Under the pieces are notes generated by a model. It was not told the DNA's origin, did no database searches, and saw only the letters and a list, made by a program, of their open reading frames with translations. Of a stretch of 64,000 nt of DNA, positions 10,124-53,253 are shown piece by piece (the stretch's first letter is position 1; every line of letters begins with the position of its first letter). The stretch is from Deltaproteobacteria bacterium. GTDB taxonomy: Bacteria; Myxococcota; JADLHZ01. A program made the translations under genes and the position numbers. The stretch is taken from positions 1 through 64,000 of the forward strand of contig JADLHZ010000084.1 of the NCBI GenBank assembly GCA_020848545.1, in the 5' to 3' direction.

Positions 10124-10147
10124 AAAATAGGTCCCTGGGACCTTTTT
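10122..10147. repeat. GGTCCCTGGGACC palindromic element, copy 1
   Basis: A 13-bp palindrome GGTCCCTGGGACC at 10130-10142, flanked by A-rich sequence on the left and TTTTT on the right. It separates the aconitase-like gene (its TAA lies in the T run) from the CehA-like gene and probably supplies the latter's ribosome-binding AGGGA. Two further copies in inverted orientation lie at 35887-35899 and 35936-35948. Function is unknown. The A/T flanks would let it act as a small terminator hairpin. Confidence 0.7.
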
Positions 10148-14922: not shown

Positions 14923-14998
14923 CAACAACCTCGGCCCGTCGCCCCGGGGTGGCAACGAGACCGCGTCCCCTTATCCCACATCGCCTCCAGGGACCAGC

Positions 14999-15051
14999 GA
15001 AAAGGGACCGGGGAGAGAATCGAAAAGGGACCGGGGAGCGGGACCGGGGAG
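14999..15051. repeat. GAAAAGGGACCGGGGAG element, copy 1 (three tandem units)
   Basis: Units GAAAAGGGACCGGGGAG at 14999-15015 and 15022-15038, then a shortened GGGACCGGGGAG at 15040-15051. The spacer between the first two is AGAATC. The array lies between the stop of the dihaem gene (15061) and the start of the amidohydrolase gene. The same unit-spacer-unit-short-unit order recurs at 53149-53203, and a head-to-head version occurs at 31796-31858. Confidence 0.8.
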
Positions 15052-15060
15052 GGAATCCGT

Positions 15061-17376
15061 TCAGGGGCAGGACGGCGTGGCGGCGATCCAGGCGTCGACG
15101 AGCGCGGTGCCGTCGGGGTCGACGGCGGCGGTGCCGAGCGGGGGCATGCGGCCGGACGCGGTCGCGTGCATGCGCGCGGAGATCACCGAGGACGCCGGCG
15201 CGCCCGGGGCGAAGACGCGTGCGTTCGTGATGCCGAGCGTGCCGCGCGTCGGGAGCGCGTCGCAGATGCCCATGCCGGCGAACGACGTGGAAAAGAGAAA
15301 GTTCGGCGGCACGACAGCGGCGGCGCCCGGGCGATGGCAGCTCGAACAATTCGCGTGCAGATAGGCGCGAGCCCGCGACGAGGCTGGTGCAGTAGAGTCG
15401 TGCGGGTAGGGCAGCGCGGGCACTGACGGCAGCGCGCCGTCGAATAGGCCGATCGCCGACAGCGTGAGGAGCTGCGGCGCATTTCGTCCGGTTGCCGGAT
15501 AGAACGTGTTGCGATCGAGCTGCGCGACCTCGAGGCCCAAGCTGAATCCCGCCGCCTGCGTGTGGCAAGTCATGCAATCGCCGCGGCTCGGGAAGGTCCA
15601 CGCCGCGGTCTCCTTGCGCCCGTCGAGCAGCGTCGCCTCGGTGCCGCCCGCGTTCCACTCGTAGCTGTAGCCCGCCCAGCCGCCATCCGAGTGACGCACG
15701 AAGAGCCGCGTCTCCACGCGCGCGCCGCCGAGCGAGAACTCCTTCGCCAAAACTGAGCCGACGGGCAGCGTGAAGTCGCCGTCGCTCTCGACGTGAATCT
15801 GGGTGCCGTTCGGCAGCGCGAGCCAGCGACGCTTCGTGGCGCCGTCCGACCACAAGGGTGCGTTCACGTCGAACGGGATCATGCCGCTCGATGGCGTGGC
15901 GCCGCTGAAGCAGCCGGTCGCCGACAAGGTCTGCGGAAAGCCGCCGCCGCCGGACGCCGGCACGACCTTGTACATCTGGGTGCCTTGGCCGCCGTACAGG
16001 TTCAAGACGTAGAGCTCGCCGGCTTCGTCCTCGGCGAAGGTCGAGATGTTCGCTGGGGTCGTCAGCAGCGCGGCCGGCTCGAACACGGTCGATGCCGTCG
16101 TGGCGTCGAGCGCCCACACTTCGCGCGAGCCGTAGTCGCCGAACACGTACTTGCCCTTCAGCGCGTCGACGGACGAGCCGCGGTAGACGTAGCCGCCGGT
16201 GATCGACTGCCGATTGCCGACGTCGTTCGAGTACTCGGCGAGCGGCGCGGCCACGTTGTTGACGCCCGCGCAGACGCCATCGCTCGTGATCCGGTGCGTC
16301 GCCTCGAAGCAGTTCCAGCCGTAGTTCTTGCCCTTCTCGATGCGGTTCACTTCTTCGTAGTCGTCTTGGCCCACGTCGCCAGCCCAGAGCGCGCCGGTCG
16401 TCCGATCGAAGGAGATACGCCACGGGTTGCGCAGGCCGTACGCCCAAACCAGCGGACAGCAAGCGTTCCCCGCTGGGCACGTGCCGGCGAAGGGATTGTC
16501 GGACGGTGCCAGAGACCCGCCGTTCACGTTCAAGCGCAGGATCTTGCCGAGGCACACGTTCTTGTTCTGCGCGTTGCCGAGCTGGTCGAGCCAGCTGCCG
16601 CCGTCGCCGAACGACGCGTAGAGCATGCCGTCCGGCCCGAACGCGACGCCGCCGCCGTTGTGGTTGTCGTAGGGTTGATCGATCTTGAGGAGCACGTCTT
16701 CGCTCGACGCGGTGAAGCTCGTCCGCGCGGCGTTCGGCGTCACGGTGAAGCGCGAGAGGTACGAGCACATCGCGACGCCGGCGCCGCAGCCCTTGCTCGA
16801 GGTGTACGAGGCGTAGACGCGGCGGTTGTTGCGAAAGTCCGGATCGACGGCGAGCCCGAGCAGGCCGCACTCGTAGCAGGAGGACTCCACGCGATCAGAG
16901 GAGCCCTCGACGTTCAAGAACATGTACGACGTGCCCGGCGCGGCGTCTTTCACGAGGCGAACCGTTCCGGGCTTCTCGACGAGCAGCCAATGGTTCGGCT
17001 CGCCGCTCGCGAACTGCACGCGCGCCGCTTGGGTCAGCGAGTCGAACGCGAGCGCCGGGAACATCGCTTCCAGGGCGACGCCGGTCGAAGGGGCGGGCCG
17101 TGCCGGTGCCAGACACGCGTTGTTGCTCGGGCGCGCGTCGAGGCCGGCGCCAGTCGTGCCGGTGACGCCTGTCTGGCCTGTGGTGCCCGTTTGTCCCGTC
17201 GTGCCTGTGTGACCTGTCGTGCCCGTGGTGCCGGTCGAGCTCGTCGGGCCGGTCGGACCCGGTGGATTCGGCGGATCCGGATCGCAGGCGTCGCAGCCCG
17301 CGCCGGTGCCGCCGAATCCAGTAAAGCCGAAGAGCAGGTGCGCGATGACGACCAAGCGGAGCGTGGACAAACGCAT
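15061..17376 (-). CDS. Sorbosone-dehydrogenase-like beta-propeller with two C-terminal haem c motifs
   Basis: 771 aa. Signal peptide (residues 1-27), then a proline/GTTG linker (about 36-77). The propeller domain (about 85-470) has the glucose/sorbosone dehydrogenase hallmarks GLLGLAVDPDFRNNRRVYASYT, HNGGGVAFGPDGMLYASFGDGG, LGKILRLNVNGG, YGLRNPWRISFD and AGDVGQDDYEEVNRI. The C-terminal part carries CMTCH (Cys601) and CSSCH (Cys677), two c-type haem sites. It should be a periplasmic PQQ- or metal-dependent sugar/alcohol oxidoreductase passing electrons through its own haems. PQQ use is inferred from the family and no PQQ synthesis genes are nearby. The ATG overlaps the TAA of a very short upstream frame (TAATG). 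A GTGCCAGACAC element lies inside the coding sequence at 17106-17116. Confidence 0.85.
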   Translation of the reverse strand: MRLSTLRLVVIAHLLFGFTGFGGTGAGCDACDPDPPNPPGPTGPTSSTGTTGTTGHTGTTGQTGTTGQTGVTGTTGAGLDARPSNNACLAPARPAPSTGVALEAMFPALAFDSLTQAARVQFASGEPNHWLLVEKPGTVRLVKDAAPGTSYMFLNVEGSSDRVESSCYECGLLGLAVDPDFRNNRRVYASYTSSKGCGAGVAMCSYLSRFTVTPNAARTSFTASSEDVLLKIDQPYDNHNGGGVAFGPDGMLYASFGDGGSWLDQLGNAQNKNVCLGKILRLNVNGGSLAPSDNPFAGTCPAGNACCPLVWAYGLRNPWRISFDRTTGALWAGDVGQDDYEEVNRIEKGKNYGWNCFEATHRITSDGVCAGVNNVAAPLAEYSNDVGNRQSITGGYVYRGSSVDALKGKYVFGDYGSREVWALDATTASTVFEPAALLTTPANISTFAEDEAGELYVLNLYGGQGTQMYKVVPASGGGGFPQTLSATGCFSGATPSSGMIPFDVNAPLWSDGATKRRWLALPNGTQIHVESDGDFTLPVGSVLAKEFSLGGARVETRLFVRHSDGGWAGYSYEWNAGGTEATLLDGRKETAAWTFPSRGDCMTCHTQAAGFSLGLEVAQLDRNTFYPATGRNAPQLLTLSAIGLFDGALPSVPALPYPHDSTAPASSRARAYLHANCSSCHRPGAAAVVPPNFLFSTSFAGMGICDALPTRGTLGITNARVFAPGAPASSVISARMHATASGRMPPLGTAAVDPDGTALVDAWIAATPSCP
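17106..17116. repeat. GTGCCAGACAC motif within CDS
   Basis: Exact GTGCCAGACAC, also present at 21296-21306, with a one-base variant (GTGTCAGACAC) at 21774-21784. The motif is an imperfect palindrome (GTGYC-A-GACAC). All three copies are inside coding sequences and are translated. Confidence 0.5.
17151..17245 (-). repeat. Coding tandem repeat for GTTG linker of the dihaem protein
   Basis: Short degenerate units (GTGCCGGTGACGCC, GTGGTGCCCGTTTGTCC and similar on the plus strand) encode the Gly-Thr-Thr-Gly and Gly-Gln/His-Thr linker near the N-terminus of the sorbosone-dehydrogenase-like protein. The composition matches the array in the adjacent amidohydrolase gene. Confidence 0.65.
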
Positions 17377-31082: not shown

Positions 31083-31162
31083 CCCTCGTGGCCGTCGCAC
31101 CTGGCCGTGGCACTTGGCCGAAACTTTGATTCTTTGAAACACGCGCCCGACAATTGCGGCGT

Positions 31163-31771
31163 ATGGTCGTTCTCTTCCTCCTCCTGTCCTCACTCCCCGC
31201 CGAAGGCACGGTGATCATCGGTGACTCGCAAGCGACCGGGCTAAAGAACGCGGGCGTCCTCACCACGCTCGGCGTCGACATCCACGCGTTCTCCGGAAAG
31301 AGCAGCGCGTTCTTCGTCGATTGGCTGCGAAAGAACCCGCGCGTCGTGGAGAACCGCACGGTCGTCTACTTCCAGCTCGGCGGCAACGACGTGACCGCCG
31401 GCGAGTCGCTCGAGACCATCAAGCTGAACGTCGCCCTGCTCGCCCGCATCGCCAAGACGGCGAGCCCGAAAGCGCGCGTCGTCTTCGGCGCCGTGCCGGT
31501 GCGCGGGCAGTGGTTCGACGCGCAGAAGCGGACGAAGCCCGAGCTGACCGCGCAAAAAGAGCGCACGTTCAACGCGCTGAATCAGTGGCTGCAGCAGGGC
31601 GAGCATGCGGACTTCTCGACCTTCGCAACGAACCCGCTGGTCAGCGACCCCGAAGTGCCGCGCTTCGTCCGGCAAGAGTACCGCCGCGCCGGCGCCCCCG
31701 ACGTACACCTGAACCGGCGCGGCTACGTCGCCCTCTCGACCGCCCTCGCCGCCCTCGTCCTTCACAACTGA
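31163..31771 (+). CDS. Exported SGNH/GDSL-type hydrolase
   Basis: 202 aa from the ATG at 31163; an in-frame TTG lies 9 nt upstream. A signal peptide (MVVLFLLLSSLPAEG) is followed by the SGNH blocks: IIGDSQATGL (nucleophile Ser in block I), GGND (block III Asn) and DVHLNRRGY (block V Asp-x-x-His). This points to an esterase, for example an acetyl or lipid esterase acting on envelope polysaccharide or lipid; the substrate cannot be deduced. Two of the three usual block II residues are less clear. The gap to the metallophosphoesterase downstream contains the 40-bp palindromic element. Confidence 0.72.
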   Translation: MVVLFLLLSSLPAEGTVIIGDSQATGLKNAGVLTTLGVDIHAFSGKSSAFFVDWLRKNPRVVENRTVVYFQLGGNDVTAGESLETIKLNVALLARIAKTASPKARVVFGAVPVRGQWFDAQKRTKPELTAQKERTFNALNQWLQQGEHADFSTFATNPLVSDPEVPRFVRQEYRRAGAPDVHLNRRGYVALSTALAALVLHN

Positions 31772-31795: not shown

Positions 31796-31858
31796 CCGAA
31801 AAGGGACCGGGGAGCGCTCCCCGGTCCCTTTTCGGAGTGCTCCCCGGTCCCTTTTCGG
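31796..31858. repeat. GAAAAGGGACCGGGGAGC element, head-to-head copy with perfect 40-bp palindrome
   Basis: The left half CCGAAAAGGGACCGGGGAGC (31796-31815) is followed directly by its exact reverse complement (31816-31835), a perfect 40-bp palindrome. A third inverted unit GCTCCCCGGTCCCTTTTCGG follows at 31839-31858. It starts 25 nt after the SGNH hydrolase stop and 66 nt before the metallophosphoesterase start. It could act as a terminator (stem ending in TTTT) or be a mobile palindrome. Confidence 0.88.
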
Positions 31859-31923: not shown

Positions 31924-32754
31924 ATGCGGGTTGCTCAGCTGTCAGACTTACACTTGCTCGAACCTGGGTTCTCGGCGCGTTCGTTCGGCAGTCAGTGGCG
32001 CGCGCGCTTCTTGAGCATCGGGCGGCCGCTCGACGCCAAGGCGCGAAGGACCCGCTTCGTCGACGCGCTGAAGGCGGCGGTGCAGCGCGGCTTCGATCAC
32101 CTCTTGGTCAGCGGCGATCTCACCGAAGAAGGCGAGCCCGAGCAGTTCGAGGTCGCGGCAGAAGCGCTCGCGGAGGCGAAGATCGCGTCCGATCGCGTGA
32201 CCCTGCTCGCGGGCAACCACGACATCTACGCGCGCTCCGACGGCTGGAAGCGCGCGCTCGCCGGTCCGCTCGCCGCCGCTGCGCAGGCGAGTCGTTTCGG
32301 TGAGCCCATCGACACGCGCGGCGTCACGTTCATCCCGGTCGACACCACGCGGGCGCAGCATTATGTGCTCAGCGCTGGCGAGCTTGACCACGCCCAGTGG
32401 GACAAGGTTCGGGCGCTCGTCGCCGATCGCACGAAGAAGGGCCGCGCGGTCGTCTTGTTCATGCACCACCCGCCGCGCCGGCACGTCTTCTCGCCGATGC
32501 AGTGGATCGATGGCCTGAGAAACGCGCACCTCGTCCACACCTTGCTCAAAGACTTTCCAAACGTGCACGTGATCCACGGACACACGCACCGCGCGGTACA
32601 GGAGATTTGGCCCGGCAACGCTCGCGCGCGCGTGTTCTCGTCGGAGTCCGTCGTCGAGAGCAAAGATCCGCTGCGCGTCTACAACGTGGACGACTCCGGC
32701 GTGTCGATCGCGGCGTTGCCAGCGAGGCGAGTTCCGGCATTCGCGACGGCGTAG
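31924..32754 (+). CDS. Calcineurin-like metallophosphoesterase
   Basis: 276 aa from the ATG at 31924. Metal motifs in order: QLSDLHL, SGDLTEEG, LAGNHDIYA, FMHHPPRR, HGHTH. These are the full set of class III cyclic-nucleotide-phosphodiesterase-like phosphoesterases, which use two metal ions. No signal peptide, so cytoplasmic. Substrates in this family include cAMP, phospholipid head groups and nucleotides. The class III cyclase-domain gene 3.3 kb away makes cyclic-nucleotide hydrolysis conceivable, though without further evidence. It converges on fhs with a 25-nt gap. Confidence 0.86.
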   Translation: MRVAQLSDLHLLEPGFSARSFGSQWRARFLSIGRPLDAKARRTRFVDALKAAVQRGFDHLLVSGDLTEEGEPEQFEVAAEALAEAKIASDRVTLLAGNHDIYARSDGWKRALAGPLAAAAQASRFGEPIDTRGVTFIPVDTTRAQHYVLSAGELDHAQWDKVRALVADRTKKGRAVVLFMHHPPRRHVFSPMQWIDGLRNAHLVHTLLKDFPNVHVIHGHTHRAVQEIWPGNARARVFSSESVVESKDPLRVYNVDDSGVSIAALPARRVPAFATA

Positions 32755-35271: not shown

Positions 35272-35883
35272 ATGATCGGTGCAGATCTCAAAGGCAGCGA
35301 AGTGAAGCTCTGGCAGCTCGTCGAAGAACGCACCAAGCCCGGCGCCGATCGCAAGGTGATCGATCAGCGCATCTGGGATCTCTTCGGGCAAGAGTGGGCG
35401 ATCATGTTCACCGACTTGTCCGGGTTCTCGCGGCACGTGGCGGCGTTCGGCATCATCCACTTCTTGCAGGTGATCCACGAGCAGAAGCGCCTGCTGCTGC
35501 CGATCGTCGCCGCCAACGACGGCATCGTCGTCAAAGTCGAAGCCGACAGCTTCTTGATCCTCTTCCGCAAAGCGGCGACTGCGGTTCGGACGGCCGTCGA
35601 CATGCAGCGCGCGTGCTACAAGCTCAACAAGACGCGCGCGCCGGAGGACCAAGTGCTCCTCTGCATCGGCCTCGGCTATGGCCGCGTGCTGCGTATCGGC
35701 GACGAAGATGTCTACGGCCAAGAGGTGAACTTGGCGAGCAAGCTCGGCGAAGACACCGCAAAGGCGAACGAGATCTTGCTCACCGAGGCCGCTGTCCAAG
35801 CCGCCGGCGAGATCCTCGGCACGAAGTACGTCGAGCGCGCTGGATCGGGACGCGCGATGCAGCTGCAATACAAGCCGGAGTAA
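35272..35883 (+). CDS. Class III adenylate/guanylate-cyclase-domain protein
   Basis: 203 aa with a strong AAGGAGG 4 nt before the ATG. The domain spans about 40-195: MFTDLSGFS (metal Asp48), GIVVKVEADSFLILF (second metal Asp92) and EVNLASKLGED (Asn153). Arg, which normally follows to stabilise the transition state, is Lys157, and the purine-specifying positions are not typical, so activity may be low or different. No sensor domain is fused. It could be a cyclase homologue used as a nucleotide-binding regulator. It is directly followed by the inverted GGTCCCTGGGACC elements and the aminotransferase gene. Confidence 0.75.
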   Translation: MIGADLKGSEVKLWQLVEERTKPGADRKVIDQRIWDLFGQEWAIMFTDLSGFSRHVAAFGIIHFLQVIHEQKRLLLPIVAANDGIVVKVEADSFLILFRKAATAVRTAVDMQRACYKLNKTRAPEDQVLLCIGLGYGRVLRIGDEDVYGQEVNLASKLGEDTAKANEILLTEAAVQAAGEILGTKYVERAGSGRAMQLQYKPE

Positions 35884-35953
35884 AAAGGTCCCTGGGACCA
35901 TTTCATGACGCCGATGACTTCGCTTTCGGAGAAATGGTCCCTGGGACCTTTTT
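35882..35953. repeat. GGTCCCTGGGACC palindromic elements, inverted pair
   Basis: Copies at 35887-35899 and 35936-35948. With their flanks (AAAAA on the outer sides, ATTTC and GAAAT on the inner) they form a 23-nt inverted repeat whose only mismatch is the centre base, separated by a 26-nt loop. The left arm overlaps the cyclase-domain stop codon. The aminotransferase ATG (35905) is in the loop, so the right arm is translated into the protein N-terminus. Confidence 0.85.
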
Positions 35954-52979: not shown

Positions 52980-53253
52980 CCTAGATCTCGCTTCGCTCGT
53001 TCTCGGTCAAATTTGTCGGCCCCCCCTCCGTCGCTTCGCTCCTCGTCCCCCTGCGGGTGACAAGCTCAAACGCCGCATGGCTCTATCGGATCTTCGTTTC
53101 GTCGGGCTGGCGCCCTTGCTCGCTGCGCGAGCCCACTTGTAGCGGGTCGAAAACGGACCGGGGAAGAAATCGAAAAGGGACCGGGGAGCAGGGACCGGGG
53201 AGGTTTTCTCCGGGGCTGGAGCGGCAGTCCATCCCCGAGTACCACTGTCCCCC
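52980..53253. repeat. Intergenic repeat region with GAAAAGGGACCGGGGAG element, copy 3
   Basis: No gene. It contains low-complexity CTCGCTTCGCTCG and TCGCTTCGCTCC runs near its start, a perfect-arm hairpin GCTCGC-TGC-GCGAGC (53118-53132), and then three units of the element: a variant GAAAACGGACCGGGGA from 53149, GAAAAGGGACCGGGGAG (53172-53188) and a shortened GGGACCGGGGAG (53191-53202). The array layout matches the one at 14999-15051. The SppA start follows 51 nt after the last unit. Confidence 0.75.

Follow-up and report, generated by a model that had tools for sequence, protein, structure and literature searches.

A 64,000-nucleotide stretch of a Deltaproteobacteria bacterium genome (hereafter the window) contains a perfect palindrome between two genes, and the short unit from which it is built recurs at two other places in the window. 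The question this locus raises is what the unit is. The initial annotation offered two answers: a family dispersed throughout the genome, such as REP or MITE elements moved by an unlinked transposase, or a structured regulatory element. Our analysis favors a form of the first. With a probability of roughly 60%, the unit belongs to the short, non-autonomous mobile repeats of REP/TIR type and is copied and dispersed by 16 RAYT-like single-tyrosine HUH transposases; we infer both the mobility and the enzyme. The best reading is that the repeat is asymmetric rather than palindromic and represents a new RAYT/TIRYT-type miniature repeat family.

Three loci in the window

The three intergenic loci described in the initial annotation (14999-15051, 31796-31858, and 53149-53203) are all present at these coordinates, and their components are given in Table 1. 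Exact 17-mers start at 14999, 15022, 31798, and 53172 on the forward strand and at 31817 and 31840 on the reverse strand, and copies with two or three mismatches are found at 15035, 53149, and 53186. At up to three mismatches, the window contains 9 matches compared to 0.12 expected. Loci 1 and 3 share the layout claimed for them, unit-spacer-unit-short unit, and the short third unit of each is a tandem duplication of the 3′ part of the unit (GGGACCGGGGAGC). The palindrome at locus 2 is indeed perfect, with two 20-nt arms that match at 100% without a gap. The third unit of this locus had been described as inverted, which is true relative to unit 1, yet it is a direct repeat of unit 2.

The palindrome and third unit together have a predicted RNA fold of -53.6 kcal/mol. 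Strong folding is limited to the rare head-to-head loci, while a single core folds weakly. No Rfam match was found at the 31796-31858 palindrome, and a terminator scan there was likewise empty.

Table 1. Units of the three loci in the window and the genes beside them
Feature	Coordinates	Strand	Remark
Locus 1, unit 1 (core CGAAAAGGGACCGGGGA + G)	14998..15015	+	Exact match
Locus 1, unit 2, 23 nt past unit 1	15021..15038	+	Exact match
Locus 1, partial 3′-suffix copy	15039..15051	+	Tandem duplication, period 13
Glucose/sorbosone dehydrogenase-like gene, stop codon 9 bp from locus 1	15061..17376	-	PF07995
GDSL-like hydrolase gene 5′ of locus 2, stop 24 bp ahead of palindrome	31154..31771	+	PF13472
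Locus 2, two head-to-head units that make up the perfect 40-bp palindrome	31796..31835	.	
Locus 2, unit 1	31798..31814	+	Exact match
Locus 2, unit 2, inverted relative to unit 1	31817..31833	-	Exact match
Locus 2, unit 3, in direct repeat with unit 2 (23 nt apart)	31840..31856	-	Exact match
Metallophosphoesterase-like gene 3′ of locus 2	31924..32754	+	PF00149
Locus 3, unit 1	53148..53165	+	2 mismatches
Locus 3, unit 2	53171..53188	+	Exact match
Locus 3, partial 3′-suffix copy	53189..53202	+	Tandem duplication, period 14

The unit is a conserved 17-nt core dispersed through one genome

The whole 8.0-Mb genome (163 contigs) was searched with AAAAGGGACCGGGGAG at up to two mismatches. This gave 281 matches, 157 forward and 124 reverse, compared to 3 with the reversed pattern as a control, and thus bears out the proposal of a dispersed, genome-wide family. 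Of the phylum's other genomes, 194 were searched: 17 have one single-mismatch match each and the rest have none; these genomes belong to other classes, and the source genome is the sole member of its class in the comparison. The exact 17-mer also gives at least 15 scattered single matches in a wider genome collection. These have no HUH-like genes nearby and were set aside as chance matches.

To describe the unit, we drew a sample of 160 units in 71 clusters, taken from the window, two complete contigs, and some 40 other regions. The statistics cover some 0.79 Mb of contiguous sequence together with the regions around known units; since these regions were picked for holding units, they are informative on position rather than density. 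The core is 17 nt long (CGAAAAGGGACCGGGGA), and each position is 93-100% conserved across the 160 units. Its boundaries are sharp on both sides and the spacer behind it is variable. A single unit is the commonest cluster size (26 of 71); the other clusters are arrays of 2-7 units, mainly head-to-tail with a period of mostly 23-28 nt, and only a few arrays have mixed orientation. Within arrays, core identity is 97% compared to 83% for the spacers, although some arrays have identical spacers. TTTCG lies within 14 nt of the core in about 20% of units compared to a background of 0.7%. The alignments point to an ideal unit that would consist of the core and a degenerate complementary right end (NGTTTTCG), with CGAAAAGGGACCGGGGANGTTTTCG as the putative full form with short inverted ends. 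This terminal inversion, a MITE trait, is weak and is seen in a minority of units.

The genome contains a diverged group of RAYT-like transposase genes

A search for a RAYT-type transposase, which the initial annotation had suggested, did find RAYT-like genes elsewhere in the genome. A PF01797 profile search gave 17 matches at E values up to 0.1, and a protein search gave one further copy (C6:33554). Sixteen of the genes form one diverged multi-copy group (MKRIPRQAMLPFGR..., MKRIPRQ-type), with L045 and L046 as outliers. Two RAYT genes fall outside this group, a typical one on C18 and a decayed one on C25.

The HUH motif (DH[VLI]H or NHLH) and the Y...N motif, by which RAYTs are recognized, are conserved in 16 of 16 genes. 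Their PF01797 and NF047646 scores are mostly under the curated cut-offs, and the NCBIfam REP-associated tyrosine transposase match to the group (4.5e-8) is below the model cut-off. The Y...NP signature of class 2 RAYTs (PMC6006769) is absent from the 16 genes, in which YLFTNA or YVRDNA keeps the N without the P. A sequence search of solved structures gave no match to the transposase. The 16 genes are under purifying selection, with a median dN/dS of 0.22, and the copies are diverged (dS about 0.4-1).

Inverted repeats of 103-276 nt, with arms 73-95% identical, bracket 9 of the 16 genes (L045-L049, L052-L054, and L059). In the sampled DNA, transposase loci are the only places where they were found. 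RAYT relatives in other genomes of the phylum have no unit-like repeats beside the gene, and long inverted repeats are absent from 10 of 11 loci and weak in the eleventh.

Two minor features were seen at the transposase loci. Most copies (L050, L051, and L053-L059) have a near-identical sigma70-like promoter, TTGACA...TATAAT, directly before the ATG, in a genome with a GC content of about 66%. The copy at a contig end (L051, C67 start) lies beside a tandem repeat of GCCCGAAC-type octamers (L051 1-130).

Units are enriched after the transposase genes

Units were found within 80 bp 3′ of the stop codon in 4 of 16 transposase genes compared to 13 of 589 genes (about 2%; Fisher P 5e-4), where the unit-bearing transposase loci are not fully independent since L051 and L053 share ancestry. 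A rare variant unit, GGACCGGGAGCGTT, has 18 copies genome-wide and follows the stop of three transposase genes (P about 4e-8; the variant was spotted at transposase loci before being counted). L140, a transposase locus without units, aligns with its paralogue L058, which has them.

Some observations count against these transposases as the source of the units. The consensus unit is absent within 80 bp at 12 of 16 genes, and none of the 16 has a unit within 300 bp upstream. Units or variants are near the transposase genes in about 6 of 16 cases and downstream only, and not on both flanks as in classical RAYTs (PMC2817692); in a RAYT/REPtron, the cognate repeats on the two sides are inverted. There is also a mismatch in age, with old transposases, judging by their dS, and near-identical unit cores. 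Finally, a decayed RAYT of the other type also adjoins four units (L044).

The last observation bears on another explanation, that a different enzyme, a typical CNRG...MPNHWH RAYT that has since been lost, spread the units (decayed copy C25:47-426). The units after MKRIPRQ-type genes would then be ordinary post-stop insertions. The four units at L044 are in tandem, upstream of the truncated typical RAYT and close to its 5′ side, and typical RAYTs do have cognate repeats in this genome because the intact one on C18 has its own palindromic repeat over its stop codon. However, the L044 units also have the stop codon of a different gene 20 bp away, as expected from their general preference, and a lost RAYT of this kind does not predict that the rare variant units concentrate after MKRIPRQ-type genes. 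We therefore consider this explanation unlikely.

Units lie just past stop codons

Although intergenic DNA makes up only about 10% of the sequence, 58 of the 71 clusters are intergenic. Of these 58, 59% are no more than 30 bp from a stop codon compared to 11% expected, which was reached in none of 5000 simulations. Clusters near start codons are depleted (3% compared to 15% expected, with genes called by a simple codon-usage script whose start positions can be off). The orientation of the unit relative to the gene is mixed. The initial annotation had called for strand and position to be compared with stop codons; a strong positional bias was found, and both orientations occur. It had also said that the idea of a family would fall if there were only three copies or no positional bias, and neither is the case with 281 matches and the bias just described. 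This bias probably reflects selection because gene ends are the least harmful sites.

The remaining 13 of 71 clusters lie within predicted frames without interrupting them, in many cases in linkers or close to signal peptides. They include copies in UvrA-, XerC-, MBOAT-, and TopoIII/RecQ-like genes, names that were read from sequence, with XerC alone confirmed by search. The unit peptide of the XerC-like protein, EKGPGK...EKGPGR, occupies a loop that is short in E. coli XerD, where it corresponds to the stretch between residues 194 and 206. Some of the in-gene clusters other than that in XerC may be mis-called starts or frames. In-frame copies mean that such repeats add peptides to ordinary proteins.

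A core far better conserved than the spacers, even inside arrays, and strongly concentrated in the 30 bp that follow stop codons could also mark a dispersed binding site or regulatory signal that is under host selection and is not mobile. This could be a site for a chromosome-organising protein, an mRNA 3′-end element, or a terminator, and the 31796-31858 element is a very stable predicted hairpin. Such a signal is improbable, however, as it would have to act in mixed orientation to the gene, from single units that do not fold, and from 13 clusters within coding sequence. The core is also missing from the rest of the phylum (194 genomes), there is no Rfam or terminator match at the palindrome, and the enrichment after transposase genes is left unexplained. 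The structured regulatory element of the initial annotation gains no support for the same reasons of mixed orientation, no Rfam match, and strong folding only at rare head-to-head loci.

Partial copies break at the center of the unit

Partial copies in tandem are present at the edges of arrays. At 5′ array edges, host flank is joined to a unit prefix that ends at core positions 4-9 (12 cases), and at 3′ edges, a unit suffix that starts at core positions 8-11 is joined to host flank (7 cases). The random control for such breakpoints was 0.15%. The breakpoints of both edges meet at the unit center, GGG|A|CC. We read them as the result of cleavage or polymerase stalling at the center, and an HUH enzyme would be the candidate for such cleavage. 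The TnpA-REP enzymes that have been studied cut at CT or CA, 5′ or 3′ of a hairpin (PMC8266576). The recurrent central breakpoints directly predict a cleavage site.

Array growth free of any transposase, in which replication slips at a G-rich motif that stalls it (possibly a two-unit quadruplex) and dispersal is old or via gene conversion, would account for partial tandem copies that break beside G runs, for the identical spacers in some arrays, and for the two G-runs per unit, but it is very improbable because slippage cannot place a core of 17 nt at some hundred unrelated sites, would not make single units the commonest cluster size, and does not fit cores that are identical where spacers differ.

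Under dispersal by the MKRIPRQ-type transposases, the enzyme would recognize the core on single-stranded DNA and cut near the central A. Re-ligation or re-priming would then add tandem copies and carry units to new places. The 40-bp palindrome of locus 2 would then be a chance head-to-head pair and not the basic form of the family. A more tentative, and on its own rather doubtful, proposal concerns how this arose: a RAYT-like lineage may have given up palindromic ends for a centrally cut, asymmetric core of 17 nt. The resulting direct-repeat arrays would have prefix copies at their left and suffix copies at their right, and the transposase of this lineage would now be multi-copy with long inverted repeats.

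Comparison with known repeat and transposase systems

RAYTs are usually described as low-copy enzymes that act on palindromic REPs. The units share with REP/BIME/REPIN repeats and their RAYT (TnpA-REP) a high copy number, with hundreds of short, mostly extragenic copies, a transposase encoded in trans, a repeat adjoining the transposase stop, a bias to gene ends, and occasional intragenic copies (PMC2817692, PMC3116915, PMC8266576). They differ in that the core is not a palindrome and a single unit lacks the palindromic hairpin of a REP, in that the arrays are direct rather than inverted, and in that the transposase is present in 16 diverged copies compared to one or a few. In addition, the sequence before the C at -1 shows no conserved tetranucleotide, and thus no GTAG or GT[AG]G tag. 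Dispersal and an unlinked RAYT-type transposase, both part of the earlier proposal, gain support from the 281 matches, from the RAYT-like genes, and from the preference of units for the 3′ ends of these genes, while the REP label fits poorly because the single unit is not palindromic and the arrays are mostly direct repeats.

TIRtrons are TIR repeat families with TIRYT transposases (Di Nocera et al. 2013, PMC3733652). As in TIRtrons, RAYT-like HUH tyrosine transposase genes lie between inverted repeats that are unrelated to GTAG REPs, and repeats are dispersed as singles, dimers, or groups. Some TIR repeats share a GGGGWSAS motif (PMC3733652), which some units here happen to fit (GGGGAGAG). 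In TIRtrons that have a dispersed family, however, the TIR itself is the dispersed repeat. Here, the unit is separate from the distinct 100-275-bp inverted repeats, which the sampled sequence contains at transposase loci alone, and at the transposase genes it is found only after the stop; the units are also arrayed head-to-tail.

The transposase has the Y1 HUH catalytic core (PF01797-like) of IS200/IS605 elements and is likewise multi-copy. Those elements have small subterminal hairpins, in contrast to the long inverted repeats and diverged copies found here. We call the family a variant rather than a REP because it lacks two REP traits, the palindromic unit and the tag, and because the inverted repeats flanking the transposase are not the dispersed unit. 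Its importance is that a known type of miniature mobile DNA here has a non-palindromic variant.

A second, palindromic family in the same genome

A second dispersed family, the perfect palindrome AAAAAGGTCCCWGGGACCTTTTT, has 129 strand-wise matches genome-wide, with copies in the window at 10125-10147, 35882-35904, and 35931-35953. Copies are often paired about 40-90 bp apart, as in REPINs, and one overlaps the stop codon of the typical RAYT at C18:35609-35953 (L043). GGTCCC/GGGACC is common to this family and the 17-nt unit, and both are dispersed, but only AAAAAGGTCCCWGGGACCTTTTT is a perfect palindrome. With a RAYT of its own, this family offers a comparison for the unit within one genome.

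Three sites, C12:230534, C12:274430, and C44:334416, carry palindromic sequences related to the unit (CGAAAACGGACCTGGTCCGTTTTCG and similar). These may be intermediate forms that link the asymmetric unit to a REP-like palindrome. One genome thus seems to hold palindromic and non-palindromic tandem families, each adjoining a RAYT-type gene, as well as palindromic relatives of the unit, which bears on the origin of REP families. K-mer counts on C44 and C12 also revealed a further repeated palindrome around GTGTCAGACAC, with 5-9 copies in 0.79 Mb.
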